From NCBI RefSeq assembly GCF_018129965.1, contig NZ_JAFCKW010000002.1, positions 620,001-684,000 on the forward strand: a stretch of 64,000 nucleotides of DNA, given 5' to 3'. Each line of letters opens with the position of its first letter. Position 1 is the stretch's first letter. The DNA is from Bradyrhizobium diazoefficiens (lineage in GTDB: Bacteria; Pseudomonadota; Alphaproteobacteria; Rhizobiales; Xanthobacteraceae). The notes beneath the pieces were generated by a model. The model made no database searches. It had not been told where the DNA came from and saw only the letters and a list, made by a program, of their open reading frames with translations. Shown in pieces: positions 17,419 through 25,159 of this stretch. Both the position numbers and the translations under genes were made by a program.

Positions 17419-18699
17419 TCAGGGCTGGCTGCCGTTTTTCGCCTTCAAGACCATGCCGCCGGCGACGCCCACGCCGAGCAGATACATCCAGCCCTCGTGG
17501 AAATCGAACAGATGCGAGTTCAGCAGCGAACTCGCCATGTTCTGAACGACGGTGACGAGGCCGATCCATGCGGCAAGACCTTCACCTGTGAACAGGCGAA
17601 GATGGGCGATCCACATCGCGTAGAGAAGGACGACGCCGAGCAGTCCCCATTGCATGGCGACGTTGAGGGTCTGGTTGTGCGGATTGCTGACGATCTCGGC
17701 ATCGAGGCGGCTGCCGCTGGTGGCGGCGCGCTCGAACTGCCGCCTGATCGAGCCGGTGCCATGGCCGATCAGGGGCGCCTCGGTAAAGGCGTGAAGCGCC
17801 TTGCGCCAATAGGTCAGCCGCTGCGCGGTCGAGGCGCGGCTGATGTCCTCATGGCCATGGCGGTATTCGACCGCGATGTCGGTGATGCGCTGGCGCAGAT
17901 AAGACGACGTCGTCCAGGCCAGCGCGCTCACGATGACGGCGCCCGCGAGCAGGATGAGTGCCCCGCGCGGTTTGAGAGATTTCCAGGCGAATAGCGCGAG
18001 CAGCAAGGGGATACACACCAGCGCGGTGCGGGCCGAGGCGACGAACACCATGTTGGTCGCGAACAGCACGATCAACGCCAGGCAGAGGGATGCCATCGCT
18101 ATACGTCCGCTGCGCCAGAAGGTCAGCGCGGGCAGCGCGAGCGCGAAGGCGCAAAGCGTGAATTCCTGGCTCTGGTCGATGTAGTTCTTGACGGGAACAC
18201 CCGCCGACGCCGTCGCGGTGATCTTCCAGGCGGGATCGAGCAGCACGATCCAGGAATAGACGGCGAGCAGCGCGCAGGAGCCGAGAAAGGCGAGACAAAC
18301 CCACAAGCCGCGCTCCGAGCGGCTGAAATGGTGGAGCAGCGCCGGGATCAGCACGAGCTTGGCGACCGGCTTGACCGCATGCAACCGGTCCGCCCAAAGT
18401 CCGTCGGACCAGAGCGTGCCGGCGAGGGCGAGCAGAAGGAAGCCAAAGGGAAGCGCGAATGCGGGCCGGGCGAGCTGTCGCCCATAGTCGCGCCAATCGA
18501 TCGTCGGCGTCACGGCGAGCAGCCAGAGGCCGACCAGGATCGACGGCGCCGTGGTCGACCAGGGCAGCGATGCCGCGGTCAGGGCGGCGAGACCATCGAC
18601 CACCCGGATCAGCAGGGGTGACTTGCCCGAGGCCGGCCATCGGGCGCGTCCGCGCTGAGCGTCCGCAGGGCTGGGCCATGTCGCGGAGTCGACGCTCAT
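17419..18699 (-). CDS. O-antigen ligase / polymerase-like membrane protein (Wzy_C family)
   Basis: 426 residues with about ten or more transmembrane segments and a large periplasmic loop between them. That loop carries the Wzy_C/RfaL-type region with RLTYWRKALHAFTEAPLIGHGTGS (conserved Gly-His-Gly) and the downstream His of VSNPHNQTLNVAMQWGLLG. Such proteins transfer finished glycan to lipid A-core or polymerise O-units in the periplasm. It is the last gene of the polysaccharide export operon; its ATG overlaps the preceding glycosyltransferase stop by four bases (ATGA). This fits attachment or modification of the glycan exported by the upstream ABC transporter. Confidence 0.85.
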   Translation of the reverse strand: MSVDSATWPSPADAQRGRARWPASGKSPLLIRVVDGLAALTAASLPWSTTAPSILVGLWLLAVTPTIDWRDYGRQLARPAFALPFGFLLLALAGTLWSDGLWADRLHAVKPVAKLVLIPALLHHFSRSERGLWVCLAFLGSCALLAVYSWIVLLDPAWKITATASAGVPVKNYIDQSQEFTLCAFALALPALTFWRSGRIAMASLCLALIVLFATNMVFVASARTALVCIPLLLALFAWKSLKPRGALILLAGAVIVSALAWTTSSYLRQRITDIAVEYRHGHEDISRASTAQRLTYWRKALHAFTEAPLIGHGTGSIRRQFERAATSGSRLDAEIVSNPHNQTLNVAMQWGLLGVVLLYAMWIAHLRLFTGEGLAAWIGLVTVVQNMASSLLNSHLFDFHEGWMYLLGVGVAGGMVLKAKNGSQP

Positions 18700-20090
18700 C
18701 CGTACGACGCCAGTTGCGTGGCGGCGAGACCCTCCGTGGGCAGCTCATGTCCGAGGAAATCGCGGGCCTGGGTCTGGTAGCCGAAGCGCGCGGCGAGTTC
18801 GCCACGTCGTGACCTGATCCTGTCGCGCCACTCCTCCTGCCGTGCCAGCACGCGGGTGATCGACGCCGCGATCGAGTCGGTCGAGAACGGGTCGAAATAG
18901 TCGGCAAGCTCGCCTGCGACCTCGCGGAACACCGCGATGTCGGAGCACAGCACCGGCGTGTTCGCGGCCAGCGCCTCGATGATCGGCACGCCAAAGCCCT
19001 CGGCGAAGCTCGGCATGATCAGCCCGTGCGCGTCGGCGATCAGGGTGGCCTTCTCGTGTTCGTCGACATAGCCGGCGAAACGCACGTTCGGGGGCAGATT
19101 GCCCATCCGGGCGATCTTGCCGGCATAGCCGATCACGACGAGATCGGCCTGCGGCACGCTGCGGAAGGCGCGGACGATGGTGGCGACGTTCTTGCGTGGC
19201 TCGTTCGAGACGATGACGACGAAGCTCGGCCGCCCCGGACGCCCCGACGGGGCTGGCAGGTGCAGGACATCCGGGGCGTCGAACCGGGTGCGGGGATAGA
19301 CGACCCGCGCCGGCAGGTGCGAAAATTGCGGCAGCAAGTTCCGGAACCGCATCATGGTATAGTTCGAGACGAAGGCGAGCTCGTCGGCCTGCCGCAGGCT
19401 GGTGAGCAGTCGCGACAGGAACAGGCGCGTGGCGACGTCGCTGAGCTTGACGTCGGTGAGCGGCAGCAGATCGTGGACCACGCAGATCACCTTGGCCCCC
19501 GGTTTGCGCCGGATCACCACCCGGGTCGGCGTGTCCACCACGATGACGTCGTAGTCGCGCGCATCGACCCGGGGCGGCGGTAGCAGGAAGAAGGCAGACG
19601 AGTCCTGGTAGCTGTAGATGCCTGCCTCGAGCTGGAAGTCGTGGAATAATTCGAGGTGGCGCAAATCCGGCGGTATGTATTCGATCGCCGAGGTGCCGTT
19701 CTTGAGTCGCCGCGCATCCAGTCCGCGCAGCCGGAGTGCGCGCAGCAGGCAGAGGAGATAGTCCGACGAGAGCATCATGGCGGCCTTGTGGTGGACCCAG
19801 CCAAGGGTGCGCCGCAGGCCGTTGCGCGCCAGCGGCTCTCTCATGTTGATCTCGTCCAGGAACCGGTAGAGGGCCAGCAGCTCGATGTTGCGCGCCTCCG
19901 TCGGGAACAACCTGGTGCGCCGCTCGCGCCCGCGCAATTTGCGATAGCGCCGCGAGGTCTCGACCAGCAGCGTCAGCGCGTGGCCCTCGGCGGCGAGCGA
20001 ACGCATCAATTCGCGCGTGACGTGGAAGATGCCGCGCTTGTGGTTGGGCTGGCCCAGCGCCTCGGAGACGAGAAGGATGGCCTGTTTCAT
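18696..20090 (-). CDS. Glycosyltransferase family 1/4 (GT-B fold)
   Basis: About 464 residues. The C-terminal Glycos_transf_1 domain shows FVVIVSNEPRKNVATIVRAF and the nucleotide-sugar EX7E motif in PSFAEGFGVPIIEALAANTPVL. The N-terminal half is a poorly conserved acceptor domain. I start at the ATG at 20090, which overlaps the stop of the Wzt gene as ATGA; an upstream in-frame extension has no support. Retaining transferases of this family add sugars to lipid-linked glycans on the cytoplasmic face. Its position between the ABC ATPase and the ligase places it in the same glycan pathway; donor and acceptor are unknown. Confidence 0.87.
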   Translation of the reverse strand: MKQAILLVSEALGQPNHKRGIFHVTRELMRSLAAEGHALTLLVETSRRYRKLRGRERRTRLFPTEARNIELLALYRFLDEINMREPLARNGLRRTLGWVHHKAAMMLSSDYLLCLLRALRLRGLDARRLKNGTSAIEYIPPDLRHLELFHDFQLEAGIYSYQDSSAFFLLPPPRVDARDYDVIVVDTPTRVVIRRKPGAKVICVVHDLLPLTDVKLSDVATRLFLSRLLTSLRQADELAFVSNYTMMRFRNLLPQFSHLPARVVYPRTRFDAPDVLHLPAPSGRPGRPSFVVIVSNEPRKNVATIVRAFRSVPQADLVVIGYAGKIARMGNLPPNVRFAGYVDEHEKATLIADAHGLIMPSFAEGFGVPIIEALAANTPVLCSDIAVFREVAGELADYFDPFSTDSIAASITRVLARQEEWRDRIRSRRGELAARFGYQTQARDFLGHELPTEGLAATQLASYG

Positions 20091-20827
20091 GCGCGTTTCT
20101 CGCGAAGCTCGAGGGCATGCGTCGCCGGCGGCTCGACCGCGACGGTCGAGGCGATGCGGCCGCGGTCGAGGTTGATGATCGTGGAGCAGGTGCGCCGCAG
20201 CAGCGGCCGGTCGTGCGAGGCGATGATCACGATCGCCGCCTGCGAGACGAGGTTTTGGAGCCGCATCTCGGCCTTCTCGGCAAAATGTTCGTCGACGACG
20301 CTGAGCCATTCGTCGAGCAGCAGGATGTCGGCCGGAAATGCGGTCGCGGTAGCGAACAGCACGCGCATCAGCATCCCCGAGGAGAACATCCGCAACGGCA
20401 GCCGCTGCATCCGGGTCTCGAGCTCTGTAAAGGCCCAGATCTCGTCGATCACGCTGCGGGTCGGCTTACGGCCGCCGATCCGCAGCAGCAGCGCGATGTT
20501 GTCTTGCGCCACGAAATCGAGGTTGACGCCGGCGTTCAGGCCGAGCAGGGGCACGATGTTGCCGTGGACCGCAACGCGGCCGCCGCTCGGCGGGTATACG
20601 CCGGCGATCAGGCGCAGCAGGGTCGACTTGCCGGAGCCGTTGGGGCCGGCAAGTCCGATACGCGCGCCGGGTTCGGCTTCGATCGTGATATTGTCGATGG
20701 CACGGATTGTGCGCATCTGGCCTGGCTCGCGGATGAGGCGGCCGAGCAGCCGCCGCTTCAGCGAGAAGTCGTAGGCGCCGTAGAGCGGATAATCGAGGCA
20801 GACGTTATGGAGCCTGATCGAGACCAT
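20087..20827 (-). CDS. Polysaccharide ABC transporter ATPase (Wzt type, short form)
   Basis: 246 residues. Walker A GPNGSGKST lies near residue 60, the signature-region variant MFSSGMLMRV replaces LSGGQ, Walker B is ILLLDEW, and the switch His lies in ASHDRPLL. The N-terminus has the LYGAYDFSLKRRLLG segment typical of teichoic acid/O-antigen exporter ATPases (TagH, Wzt, KpsT). It ends shortly after the core and so lacks the C-terminal carbohydrate-binding domain of O9a-type Wzt; chain-length recognition would have to come from elsewhere. It lies 2 bp after the permease fusion gene and overlaps the next glycosyltransferase. Confidence 0.93.
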   Translation of the reverse strand: MVSIRLHNVCLDYPLYGAYDFSLKRRLLGRLIREPGQMRTIRAIDNITIEAEPGARIGLAGPNGSGKSTLLRLIAGVYPPSGGRVAVHGNIVPLLGLNAGVNLDFVAQDNIALLLRIGGRKPTRSVIDEIWAFTELETRMQRLPLRMFSSGMLMRVLFATATAFPADILLLDEWLSVVDEHFAEKAEMRLQNLVSQAAIVIIASHDRPLLRRTCSTIINLDRGRIASTVAVEPPATHALELREKRA

Positions 20828-20829
20828 GG

Positions 20830-22782
20830 TCAGATCCAGAATGCGGCTTTGCGCAGTTGAACCAGCGTCAGCACGCTCGCAAGGATCAGCAGCGCGAGCG
20901 TGACGAGGACATAGACGAGGCTCGCAGGGTCGACATGACCACCCGCAAGCGGCTCGCGCCACACTGCGAACAGATGCGTGAGCGGATTGAGCCGCAGTAC
21001 GATCGCGCGCTGGTTGATCATGTCGGACGACCAGATCACGGGCGAGGCAAGGAAGGCGAGCATCAGCGTCGATTCGATGATCGGCTTGAGGTCGTGATAG
21101 CGCGTTGCGAGCGCGCCGAGGACGAGGCTCAGGGCGAAAGTGCAGGCCACGAACAGCAGCAGGCCCGGCAGCGCAGCCAGTGCGTACGAGACATCGTGGG
21201 GTGACAGGACGAGCCACAGCACCAGCGGCACGCAGGCGTTATGCAGCGCGAACAGCCCCTGGCGGAACGTGCATTGCAGCAGGAAGACGACCGGCGGCAG
21301 TGCCCGGTCGCGGATCAGGCTCGCCGAATTCTGCAGCGCCGTGGTCGCATCCAGCACGACGCCGTTGAGGAAGGTCCAGGCCGTCATCGACAGCGCCAGC
21401 ATCGGCAGGCGCGACAGCATGCCGGTGTTCGACATCTGGCCGATCACCGAGCCCAGCACTGCAACCACGATCGCCATCTGCAGCGACATCCAGAACGGTC
21501 CGAGCAGTGAGCGCACGTAGCGGTGCCGCATGTCGGACCACGCCAGCGCGGCCGCAATCCGGACGCTTTCCATCCACTCCGTCGGCCGCGGCCGCTCGGT
21601 ATCAGATGCCGGCGCGGGGCTGGGCGCGGCGACGGCGTTGCGGTAGACGGTTTCCATGCCCTCCCTGAAGGCCGCGGCGGAATAGCGGGTGAGGGCGCGG
21701 GTGCGGGCTGCGACGCCCATGCGACGGCGGCGCTCGGGGTCGCGGATCAGGGTGTCGATGGCATATCCGAGCATCTCCGGATCGCCGGGCGGCACGGTGA
21801 TGGCTTCCATGCCGTGGCGGGCGACGCGCGGCACGGCCGTATCGAGCGCCGTGTTCACGACGGGGCGACCGGCGGCCATGGCTTCGAGCTGGACGAGGCC
21901 GAAGGTCTCGGCGTTGGTTACCGAAGGAATCACGAAGACGTCGCACAGGCACATCAGCTTGACGCGTTCGCTGTCGCTGACCGAGCCGAGCAGGCGGACG
22001 CGGTCAGTCAGGCCAAGCTCGCGGATCAACTGCTCCAGACGCGGCCGCTCATTGCCCTCACCAATGATCCAGACCTCGAACGCGCGACTGGCTGCGGCGC
22101 GTATCAGGACGTCAAACCCCTTGTAGGGCACGAGCCGGCCGCAGGCGAGGACGAGCCGGCCGCGGTCGTTGACGTGGTGCGGCTCGAGCTTCGGCCAGTC
22201 GTATCCGGAGCTGTCGATGCCGAACGGCACGACGTGACATTTGTGGTCGAATTCGCGCAGCAGCGGCGTGGTCTCGACCAGCACGTGGTCCGAGACGATG
22301 ATCGCTTTGGCGCGGCGCAGCGTTCGCCGCATCAGGGGCTGGACGAACCAGCGCAGGCCGGCATGGGTGACGATGTCGGCGTGCCAGTGCACCACCAGCG
22401 GTCTGCTGCCGCCGAATCCCAGAGCGAAGACGAGGTCGGCGAGCGGGAAGGGGGCATGGAGTGCAAGCAGATCGTGCTTGGCGATTCTGCGCCACAGCCG
22501 CCACGGATAGGTCGGAGCGGTCGGAAGCGAGAACAGATTGCCGAACGAGCGGACGCGCTCGACCGGCACGTCGTTGACGACGAGTTCGCGCGGCCCGGCC
22601 GATTGCGAGCAGACCAGCACGGCGGAGGCGAAGGCGTCCTTCAGGCTGGCGCAGATGTCGCGGATCACCGTCAGCGTGCCGCCGAACAGGTCGGGATAAT
22701 AGATCTTGAAGATGTGCAGCACCGACGGGCGGTGCGCTGTTTCGTGCAAGGGGGCCTGCAAGTCTTCCTGGGTGTGGTGCAT
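20830..22782 (-). CDS. Fusion of GT4 glycosyltransferase and ABC-2 polysaccharide permease (Wzm)
   Basis: 650 residues. Residues 1–385 form a GT-B glycosyltransferase: an N-terminal Gly-rich loop (YYPDLFGGTLTVIRD), then LACGRLVPYKGFDVLIRA and the EX7E motif in NAETFGLVQLEAMAAGRPVV. A Pro/Ala linker (386–402) leads to an ABC-2 permease domain (403–650) with the amphipathic DMRHRYVRSLLGPFW entry helix, six membrane segments and the conserved NPLTHLFAVWREPL region. The sugar transferase and exporter channel would therefore be one polypeptide at the inner membrane. The partner ATPase follows 2 bp downstream. An internal ATG at 21573 preceded by GGAG could also yield free permease. Confidence 0.92.
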   Translation of the reverse strand: MHHTQEDLQAPLHETAHRPSVLHIFKIYYPDLFGGTLTVIRDICASLKDAFASAVLVCSQSAGPRELVVNDVPVERVRSFGNLFSLPTAPTYPWRLWRRIAKHDLLALHAPFPLADLVFALGFGGSRPLVVHWHADIVTHAGLRWFVQPLMRRTLRRAKAIIVSDHVLVETTPLLREFDHKCHVVPFGIDSSGYDWPKLEPHHVNDRGRLVLACGRLVPYKGFDVLIRAAASRAFEVWIIGEGNERPRLEQLIRELGLTDRVRLLGSVSDSERVKLMCLCDVFVIPSVTNAETFGLVQLEAMAAGRPVVNTALDTAVPRVARHGMEAITVPPGDPEMLGYAIDTLIRDPERRRRMGVAARTRALTRYSAAAFREGMETVYRNAVAAPSPAPASDTERPRPTEWMESVRIAAALAWSDMRHRYVRSLLGPFWMSLQMAIVVAVLGSVIGQMSNTGMLSRLPMLALSMTAWTFLNGVVLDATTALQNSASLIRDRALPPVVFLLQCTFRQGLFALHNACVPLVLWLVLSPHDVSYALAALPGLLLFVACTFALSLVLGALATRYHDLKPIIESTLMLAFLASPVIWSSDMINQRAIVLRLNPLTHLFAVWREPLAGGHVDPASLVYVLVTLALLILASVLTLVQLRKAAFWI

Positions 22783-22789
22783 GACGGGG

Positions 22790-22951
22790 TCAGCCTGCGA
22801 TCAGCGCTGCGACGAACGGTGCGGCCAGCACCGAGATGAAGATCACGCCGCGCAGCAGCGCGGGCAGGATGGGTTCGATTGCGCCGTGCCACCGGCCGGG
22901 ATCAGGAACGGCACGCAGCGCACTGGAATTGCGGACCAAGCGGTCAGCCAT
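22790..22951 (-). CDS. Small membrane protein, 53 aa, first gene of the polysaccharide export operon
   Basis: A short frame of 53 codons, starting MADRLVRNSSAL and ending with one hydrophobic segment (residues ~27–52, PILPALLRGVIFISVLAAPFV...). I do not recognise the family. Support: it lies between the predicted leftward promoter (-10 at 22993–22998) and the fusion gene, it ends only 7 nt before the fusion start codon, and its composition fits a single-pass inner-membrane peptide. No strong ribosome site is visible. It could be a small subunit or regulator of the exporter, or merely a translated leader for the operon. Confidence 0.5.
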   Translation of the reverse strand: MADRLVRNSSALRAVPDPGRWHGAIEPILPALLRGVIFISVLAAPFVAALIAG

Positions 22952-23078: not shown

Positions 23079-23969
23079 ATGAATGCCAAGTCCGGGTCCA
23101 AGGTGGTCGACAAGCCGGCGGCTCCGCAGCCGAATTCGGCCGAGAAGCTGCACGCGCCGCTGGCGCGGCTGCTGCGCCCGCTCGTGCGGCTCTGCATCCG
23201 CAGCGGCATGACATTTCCGGCGCTGGCGCAACTGCTTCGCGAGCTCTTCGTCAACGTCGCCGAGCACGATTTCGCTCTGGACGGCAAGGAGCAGACCGAC
23301 AGCCGCGTCAGCCTGCTCACCGGCATCCATCGCAAGGAAGTCGCGCGGCTGCGCGGCGCGGGGACGCCGGTGCACGAGACCCCGGCGGCGGTGTCGCTGA
23401 CGAGCGCGGTGATCGCGCGCTGGCTCGCCGCGCCGGAGTTCACCGATGCAAGGGGCGAGCCGCTGGCGCTGCCCCGCACCGCCGAGGGCGATGCGCCGTC
23501 GTTCGAGCAACTGGTCGCCTCCGTCACCAAGGACGTGCGTCCGCGCGCGGTGCTCGACGAATGGGTCGACCGCAAGCTCGTCACCATCAACGCTGCCGAC
23601 GAGATCGAGCTGGTTGAGGCCGCCTTCGTTCCCAGCGGCGAAGACGACAGCAAATGGCATTATCTCGGCCGGAATCTGCACGACCATATCGCGGCGGCCG
23701 AACGCAACGTCTCGGGCGCGGCCCCGCGTTTTCTCGAACGCGCGGTGCACTACAACAACATCTCGCCGAAGCTTGCGCGCCGCCTCGAAGCGCGCTCGCG
23801 CGAACTGGCGATGGACGCGCTGAAGACGGCCAACCGCGAAGCCCACCGTGCGCTCGGCAGGGACAAGGGCGGTGACGCCCGCTGGAATTTCGGCATCTAC
23901 ATCTACAGCGAAGATGCCGACGAAGAGGGCGAGGCCAGGGAGGGCGGCAAAGAAGGTGGCTCCTCATGA
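23079..23969 (+). CDS. DUF6502 family protein
   Basis: 296 residues of a conserved proteobacterial family of unknown function. The N-terminal part (about 15–100) is helical, with LARLLRPLVRLCIRSGMTFPALAQLLRELFV followed by a helix-turn-helix-like stretch, SRVSLLTGIHRKEVARLR, which hints at DNA binding. The C-terminal part has HYNNISPKLARRLEARSREL. A later in-frame ATG region upstream was rejected because it would read through the predicted promoter. The gene overlaps the next by ATGA, so the two are co-translated. Autoregulation through the two palindromes just upstream is my inference. Confidence 0.8.
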   Translation: MNAKSGSKVVDKPAAPQPNSAEKLHAPLARLLRPLVRLCIRSGMTFPALAQLLRELFVNVAEHDFALDGKEQTDSRVSLLTGIHRKEVARLRGAGTPVHETPAAVSLTSAVIARWLAAPEFTDARGEPLALPRTAEGDAPSFEQLVASVTKDVRPRAVLDEWVDRKLVTINAADEIELVEAAFVPSGEDDSKWHYLGRNLHDHIAAAERNVSGAAPRFLERAVHYNNISPKLARRLEARSRELAMDALKTANREAHRALGRDKGGDARWNFGIYIYSEDADEEGEAREGGKEGGSS

Positions 23970-25159
23970 GCCGGCCGCCGCTGATCTCGCGCCGTCTGCT
24001 GCTGACGGGGCTCTGGCTCGCCGGCACCGCCATGGCGCGGGCGCAGGTCGGACGCGGCACCGATCAGGGCATCGGTGGCACCGGGCTCACGCGCGGTGAC
24101 GATCACGGCATCGGCGGCACCGGCATCGTCGGCGTGATCCAACGCTTCGGCAGCATCTACGTCAACGGCGAACGCATCACCTATGCCAGCGATGTCCCGG
24201 TCCGGATCGATGGCCAGGCGGCGAGCCCCAAGGCCCTGCGCATCGGCCAGCTCGCGCGCGTCGTCGCAACCCGCCAGGCCGACGGCACGCTGGTCACGCG
24301 CAACATCGCGATCGCGAGCGAGGTCGCAGGTCCGATCGAATCCGCAAAGGGCAACGAGCTGATCGTGCTCGGCCAGAAGATCGTCGCAACCGGCAAGGAC
24401 AGCAAGCTCAGAGCCGGCACGCAGGTTGCGGTCTACGGTCTGCGCCGCGCCGACGGCGTGATCGTCGCAACTCTCATCGAGCCACGACGCGAGACGACCG
24501 AGCGTGTCACCGGTCTCGTCGAGCGCGGGCCCGACGGTTTGCGGATCGGCGGACTGAGGCTGAGCGGTGTCGATCCCTTGCTGGTCGGTCAGCGCGTCCA
24601 GATCGAAGGCAGCGCGAGCCAGGGCGCAATGCAGGCCGCGCGCACGCGGATCGACGATTTTTCGGATCTCGTCGGTGCAAGCCGCCTGTCGATCGAGGCG
24701 TATGTGCAGCGGGCGGGATCGAACCTGCAACTCGGCTCGGGGATCGTCGCTCGCGATGGCTCTCGGTTCGGCCCGGCTGCCGGCGAAGCGCGCATGGTGG
24801 TGAACGGCGCGTTCGACCGCTCACGCGGATTCGAGGTGGATTCGGCTCGGGCCATCGGGCAGGGGCCGGGCACATCTGCGGCCGGCGCTGGCAGTCCGGA
24901 CCGGTCGCCCGGAGGCTCGATCCTGCATCCCAATCGCGGCACGCCCAATTTGGGTGGTGGTCAGCCAGGTGCGCCGGGCGGGCCTGTGCCTGGATCCAGC
25001 CCCGGCGCCAGTCCCGGCTCGGTGCCGCCGGGCTCAGGCAGCGCGTCGCCAGGCCCTGCTGGTCCTGGCGCGCCCGGCTCAGGCCCGATGGGCCCCGGTG
25101 GCGGCATGGGCGGTGGCTTCGGAGGGCCCGGCGGCGGGATGGGCGGTGGCCGGCGCTGA
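23966..25159 (+). CDS. Exported DUF5666 domain protein with Gly/Pro-rich C-terminus
   Basis: 397 residues. It has an Arg-Arg-led signal peptide (RRLLLTGLWLAGTAMARAQ), then a Gly-rich GIGGTGL/GIGGTGI pair, then three or so DUF5666 beta-barrel repeats (about 50–290: 'GVIQRFGSIYVNGERITY', 'GPIESAKGNELIVLGQKI', 'TGLVERGPDGLRIGGLRL'). The last ~110 residues are low-complexity Gly/Pro/Ser ending in GGGMGGGFGGPGGGMGGG. The function is unknown; the location is probably the periplasm or cell surface. The four-base overlap with the DUF6502 gene implies a functional pair. A terminator hairpin follows directly. Confidence 0.83.
   Translation: MSRPPLISRRLLLTGLWLAGTAMARAQVGRGTDQGIGGTGLTRGDDHGIGGTGIVGVIQRFGSIYVNGERITYASDVPVRIDGQAASPKALRIGQLARVVATRQADGTLVTRNIAIASEVAGPIESAKGNELIVLGQKIVATGKDSKLRAGTQVAVYGLRRADGVIVATLIEPRRETTERVTGLVERGPDGLRIGGLRLSGVDPLLVGQRVQIEGSASQGAMQAARTRIDDFSDLVGASRLSIEAYVQRAGSNLQLGSGIVARDGSRFGPAAGEARMVVNGAFDRSRGFEVDSARAIGQGPGTSAAGAGSPDRSPGGSILHPNRGTPNLGGGQPGAPGGPVPGSSPGASPGSVPPGSGSASPGPAGPGAPGSGPMGPGGGMGGGFGGPGGGMGGGRR

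Follow-up and report, generated by a model that had tools for sequence, protein, structure and literature searches.

A conserved fusion of a GT4 glycosyltransferase to a Wzm-type ABC exporter permease in Bradyrhizobium

A GT4 glycosyltransferase (GT) and a Wzm/KpsM-type ABC-2 permease are encoded as one protein in Bradyrhizobium diazoefficiens, and it is close to certain that this fusion is real and conserved. The gene lies in a 64,000-nucleotide stretch of DNA, the whole of which is here called the window. We found no description of such a GT4-Wzm fusion in the available parts of the open-licence PMC literature, and we regard it as a conserved, apparently undescribed domain architecture within a known kind of exporter. 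How ABC exporters of the CBM-less kind (those whose Wzt ATPase lacks a carbohydrate-binding domain) time the uptake of a chain is an open question, and models rest on stoichiometry and on transferase-exporter contacts that are difficult to demonstrate. Nitrogen-fixing bacteria that are genetically tractable and bear a natural covalent fusion make this question of coupling directly testable.

Results

Domain architecture of the fusion protein

A preliminary description of the locus had proposed that a single 650-codon frame joins a complete GT4 glycosyltransferase, with its EX7E motif, to a complete ABC-2 permease, and the frame, the Pfam domains and the predicted folds agree with this (Table 1). 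Three Pfam domains score above their cut-offs: Glyco_trans_4_4 at residues 34-188, Glycos_transf_1 at 202-361 and ABC2_membrane (PF01061) at 412-607, the last with 41.1 bits against a cut-off of 26.9. The EX7E motif corresponds to E292...E300 (codons beginning at 21909 and 21885) and is invariant in 58/58 aligned rows, comprising 57 fused sequences and the GT of Bradyrhizobium sp. 139. Besides E292 and E300, residues K221, H132 and H134 are unchanged in all 58 rows, and R216 is kept in 57, including every fused sequence (57/57), the exception being the GT of Bradyrhizobium sp. 139. These six residues presumably have the catalytic roles of their counterparts in the GT4 family.

Table 1 Features of the fusion gene and its neighbourhood (positions in the window)
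Feature	Position	Strand	Remarks
GT4::Wzm fusion protein	20830..22782	-	650 aa, ATG start, plus stop, uninterrupted frame
GT4 glycosyltransferase half, residues 18-385	21628..22731	-	Pfam, AlphaFold2, VIA-align
Linker, residues 386-402	21577..21627	-	without predicted secondary structure
Wzm/KpsM-type ABC-2 permease half, residues 403-650	20833..21576	-	Pfam, profile search, VIA-align
Internal ATG (Met404), proposed second start	21571..21573	-	1/57 sequences
53-aa small membrane protein, first operon gene	22790..22951	-	stop 7 nt before fusion start
Wzt ATPase, 246 aa, without Wzt_C	20087..20827	-	ATG 2 nt after fusion stop
Second GT4-like glycosyltransferase	18696..20090	-	ATG overlaps Wzt stop (ATGA)
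Wzy_C (O-antigen ligase/polymerase-like) membrane protein	17419..18699	-	ATG overlaps second-GT stop (ATGA-type)
DUF6502 gene, divergent	23079..23969	+	Pfam
DUF5666 protein gene, adjoins DUF6502	23966..25159	+	Pfam

The whole protein was modelled with AlphaFold2 from 79 aligned proteins of the window and the loci, with 45 of the 57 fused rows among them. The model has a mean pLDDT of 85.9 and a pTM of 0.61, a value at which the placement of the GT relative to the permease is not fixed. Helices end at residue 385 and resume at 403, with pLDDT below 50 at 392-401, and the linker between the halves is predicted to be disordered; its earlier characterisation as Pro/Ala-rich holds across the 57 sequences (Ala 25.6%, Pro 12.8%). 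When aligned with VIA-align, the GT half superposes on 6kih_A with Z 39.9 (362 aligned residues, rmsd 2.5), and several other solved GT-B enzymes are nearly as close; the predicted GT-B fold together with EX7E places this half in GT4. As structure searches with the whole model returned the GT half alone, the permease was folded and searched separately (mean pLDDT 82.6, pTM 0.82). Its best match was 9qfx_A, the Wzm of Mycobacterium abscessus (VIA-align Z 26.7, 248 aligned, rmsd 2.4; profile search E 2.2e-82), followed by Aquifex Wzm (Z 22.9), TarG (Z 21.7) and KpsM (Z 21.7). Each half is predicted to fold as a complete domain. By domain, predicted fold and adjoining Wzt, this half is a Wzm/KpsM polysaccharide ABC-2 permease, with a putative function in export. 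The permease departs from its usual form as a separate protein, since 57 distinct sequences join it to GT4, and what had been called an unusual fusion is borne out as a genuine and unusual architecture.

Conservation and distribution of the fusion

Both halves were found at about 70% identity or more at 70 loci (some genomes contributing twice), and at all 70 they lie in one frame; the aligned set of 57 consists of 56 distinct fused sequences and that of the window. How widespread the fusion is, a question left by the preliminary description, was answered from genome samples. A full-length, stop-free fusion is present in 46/146 Bradyrhizobium genomes, including the source genome and many single-contig assemblies, in a sample drawn evenly from a larger group; the remaining genomes, about two thirds of the sample, lack the fusion and at E 1e-30 matched in part or not at all. 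The family sample of 198 genomes added one carrier outside Bradyrhizobium, in a sister genus (1/3 genomes). Given 70/70 loci in one frame and full-length stop-free copies in 46/146 genomes of the genus, chance is excluded. Public contig records contain both halves at 25/26 loci and the GT half only at one (L061); 24 of these 26 records are titled Bradyrhizobium, one is a Bradyrhizobiaceae MAG and one is titled Frankia. This last record (Frankia sp. RB7, L048) holds a Bradyrhizobium-type operon, falls within Bradyrhizobium on the GT tree and is probably mislabelled.

Wzm profile searches combined with a GT profile turned up no second fusion among sampled genomes of the order, the class or the phylum. 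The Wzm profile matched 53/347 genomes of the order (E 1e-20), 51/337 of the class (E 1e-15) and 49/349 of the phylum (E 1e-15), in overlapping samples and with at most seven candidates scored per genome. Thirteen loci outside the genus were examined, six of them listed with frames of at least 560 aa (G450, G999:C4, G754, G963, G960 and G760) and seven with shorter ones. None of these 13 Wzm-bearing frames matched the GT profile, as against 57/57 fused rows, part of which had built the profile. Their long upstream parts were considered as fused GTs and rejected; we take them for frames that GC-rich DNA leaves open by chance. One of them (G963) was a 609-aa frame in the search listing and is 263 aa in the fetched DNA. 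Among plasmids, 75 records gave a match and none covered 80% of the query in one place.

Across eight fused pairs, dN/dS is 0.12-0.22 in the GT half and 0.08-0.39 in the Wzm half; the linker (columns 384-401) gives 0.38-1.18 in the seven pairs where it was computable. Purifying selection acts on both halves, and the linker is nearly free to change. The linker span (window residues 382-409) occurs in eight different lengths of 25 to 34 residues among the 57 sequences, all in frame. Because the linker evolves nearly freely, the exact geometry of the tether is not under selection.

Origin and loss of the fusion

Free GT relatives lie directly before wzm and wzt at many loci of the same family, with 4-nt overlaps at three (L090, L094 and L097). 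These operons (L088, L090, L092, L094, L101 and others) have the same three parts as the window in the same order, with GTs 39-45% and Wzm proteins 22-30% identical to it over the aligned part. They differ from the window in keeping the genes separate, and the 11 free Wzm proteins that were aligned have a longer N-terminus, which is absent from the fusion. As gene-fusion evidence, the fusion suggests that the free GT and Wzm proteins, whose genes are neighbours throughout the family, act jointly.

A GT tree of 58 rows (35 of the 57 fused, 22 free and that of Bradyrhizobium sp. 139) was built by a quick method with midpoint rooting and long branches flagged; two relatives, L113 and L114 (34% and 31%), were left out. 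On it, the 35 fused rows cluster together with the GT of Bradyrhizobium sp. 139 in a single group, and the 22 free rows fall outside this group. The simplest reading of the tree is a single fusion event, with the fused form as the apparent derived state. One genome (G237) has a fused and a free copy.

The locus has also been lost. In Bradyrhizobium sp. 139 (L061 and L083; L083 7852-9069 and following), the GT remains and all that follows it, from the linker through the end of LivK, is missing, and this strain thus lacks wzm, wzt and the downstream operon genes. Its GT, at 62% identity, sits on a branch of 0.89 (median 0.13) and has R216 replaced by Pro. Against six fused relatives, dN/dS is 0.28-0.32 with dS raised too (0.79-0.94), values that come from one genome, and age or exchange may contribute to the divergence. 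Two fusion-less genomes (G037 and G041) have kept DUF6502 close to remnants of the Wzy_C gene, and in G037 a short segment resembles, by eye, a GT start as well; the genes of the operon seem to decay together. The remnants beside DUF6502 lie at L147 10374-10546 and L148 6359-6712, and the DUF6502 gene of G041 is split over two frames.

The surrounding operon

On the minus strand, the gene order is 53-aa protein, fusion, Wzt, second GT and Wzy_C protein (Table 1). The 53-aa protein was found in 43/57 rows by reading upstream of the fusion, and tblastn adds three more of these 57. It has a conserved C-terminal hydrophobic stretch and in-frame length changes, and is partial or undetected in more distant carriers. 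DUF6502 lies upstream of the fusion at 40/40 fused loci with long flanks, and of 17 chosen Bradyrhizobium genomes lacking the fusion, 15 have no match to it at E 1e-20; it is a possible regulator or partner of the operon. Genes of the window's other flank (LivK, EamA or the dehydrogenase farther out) are on the far side at 37/40 loci, the exceptions being L054, L103 and L115. These shared flanks on both sides place the operon at one ancestral site. O-antigen clusters of Bradyrhizobium are strain-specific according to the accessible part of PMC4070871, and since the site of this operon is fixed, we do not call its product an O-antigen.

No sugar-nucleotide or initiating genes were found within the operon. 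GDP-mannose dehydratase-type genes are near three of the free-gene loci (L092, L101 and L084), unlike in the window operon, and the source genome has a gmd gene outside the operon, which is not proof of a donor. Together these make a GDP-deoxyhexose donor a lead, no more.

The Wzy_C protein scores 68.4 bits for its domain (cut-off 31.7) and matches TfpM weakly (19 bits against a cut-off of 600). The studied Bradyrhizobium waaL/rfaL (bll5926 and orthologues) lies downstream of rfaD in the portion of PMC4581169 available, and the available portion of PMC4743980 also puts waaL by rfaD. That protein and the one in the window share the Wzy_C domain and a length of about 426 aa, but differ in gene location. 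In the source genome, rfaD (C52:87253) and a Wzy_C gene, the canonical waaL candidate, are together on contig C52, about 2 kb apart, whereas the window operon is on C12; we rejected the identification of 17419-18699 as the studied waaL on this ground. The source genome has eight Wzy_C matches (contigs C52, C12, C1, C34, C23, C45 and C51), one of them by rfaD.

The Wzt ATPase

Wzt was said to begin 2 bp after the fusion and to have no carbohydrate-binding domain, and both statements stood: the gap is 2 nt, and the 246-aa protein has ABC_tran (Pfam) and no match to Wzt_C at E 0.001. O-antigen Wzt proteins that read a cap bear a C-terminal carbohydrate-binding domain (PMC9445017, in the part available). 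Judged by the sequence of its Wzt, the exporter of the window appears to be of the CBM-less type. The source genome has one Wzt_C match elsewhere (C12, near 282526), so both exporter types seem to be present. The nearest solved ATPase, like the nearest solved permease, comes from the Wzm-Wzt of M. abscessus, where the two are partners.

We considered, and rejected, that the fusion stands in for the missing Wzt domain, a tie between the two that the preliminary description had suggested. Ten Wzt proteins were tested out of 17 loci that have a free GT relative and a Wzt match, and nine of the ten also have no carbohydrate-binding domain. The fusion is therefore not required for a CBM-less Wzt, as such proteins occur with free transferases as well.

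Discussion

We lean, with modest confidence, towards a tethered transferase on a CBM-less exporter that couples synthesis to export at a fixed transferase-to-exporter stoichiometry; the coupling of chain synthesis to export is itself a reasoned guess. One protein would carry a soluble GT4 on a flexible tether of about 17 residues leading into the cytosolic N-terminus of the Wzm permease. Two copies of the fusion with two CBM-less Wzt subunits would make an exporter bearing two transferases at its cytosolic face, each within an estimated 60 angstroms or so of the permease N-terminus if the tether were fully stretched. The fusion would thereby fix the ratio of transporter to synthesis complex and, as the lipid-linked glycan grows, keep it at the channel entrance. 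The second transferase may share in synthesis, and the Wzy_C protein may ligate or polymerise the glycan in the periplasm. The earlier proposal of a role for the fused transferase in chain completion is not supported, as no feature seen here marks this GT as a terminator. Tentatively, and with a good deal less confidence than in the tethered arrangement, one could go further to a processive synthase-like ABC exporter, in which the tethered GT extends the chain at the channel mouth, extension feeds or gates translocation, and both polymerisation and export of a surface glycan fall to one complex that recognises no cap.

The fusion could instead be a neutral accident, in which overlapping GT and wzm genes were joined by an indel, the halves work as they do when separate and the tether has no role. 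It suits this account that GT and wzm often occur as free adjacent genes, some of them overlapping, that the linker changes nearly freely, and that a CBM-less Wzt is found without the fusion. Set against it, the frame is kept in 57/57 distinct sequences despite the changes in linker length, and of the 70 loci where each half reaches about 70% identity none is split, and we find it doubtful.

Similarly, we think it unlikely that the fused and the second GT make a short lipid-linked oligosaccharide that is exported and then polymerised, or transferred to protein or lipid A, by the Wzy_C protein in the periplasm. The presence of only two transferases in the operon with Wzy_C adjoining would fit, as would the weak TfpM match and the canonical waaL candidate near rfaD elsewhere in the genome. 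However, Wzm-Wzt exporters move polymers in the available parts of PMC10951656 and PMC9445017, and Wzy_C alone does not separate a ligase from a polymerase.

Separate GT and permease products in the cell, arising by internal initiation or by cleavage of the linker, are very improbable. The preliminary description had noted an ATG at 21573 with GGAG three bases upstream that might give free permease, and the predicted disorder of the linker would suit cleavage. The ATG exists, as Met404, but is present in only 1/57 sequences, which leaves the proposed free permease without support, and we rejected the internal start as a conserved feature. Over the linker columns of the 57 rows there are 39 start-like codons. 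A Shine-Dalgarno-like motif precedes three of them by 4-10 nt, in three rows and at other, differing positions; the GGAG of the window, at 3 nt, is outside this set. A sequencing or assembly artefact, in favour of which nothing was found, is refuted by the recurrence of the same full-length frame across loci and in 46/146 genomes, many of them single-contig, as well as in named public records.

Comparison with known systems

The tethered arrangement that we favour can be set beside exporters whose parts are separate. In the Klebsiella pneumoniae O2a O-antigen system, which like the window has a CBM-less ABC exporter, the cap is not read, the ratio of transporter to synthesis complex sets chain length and extension is coupled to export (PMC11231755, in the part available). 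The same part of that paper mentions no covalent transferase-exporter link, and its transferases and product are those of a different pathway. Aquifex WzmWzt, Staphylococcus TarGH and KpsMT share the permease fold predicted for the window, without a transferase domain.

The mycobacterial galactan exporter Wzm-Wzt (PDB 9qfx, M. abscessus) is the closest solved system by sequence for both permease and ATPase, and the closest by predicted fold for the permease. The NCBIfam galactan models score 138.4 and 168.8 bits in the window, far below their equivalog cut-offs of 380 and 400, and we do not file it as a galactan exporter for that reason. In the accessible portion of PMC10951656, co-location with Wzm did not explain the site of galactan synthesis in mycobacteria, and a contact of GlfT2 with Wzm-Wzt is proposed to set galactan chain size. 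The mycobacterial transferases GlfT1 and GlfT2 are separate proteins, unlike the transferase of the window, which is joined to its permease in a single chain.
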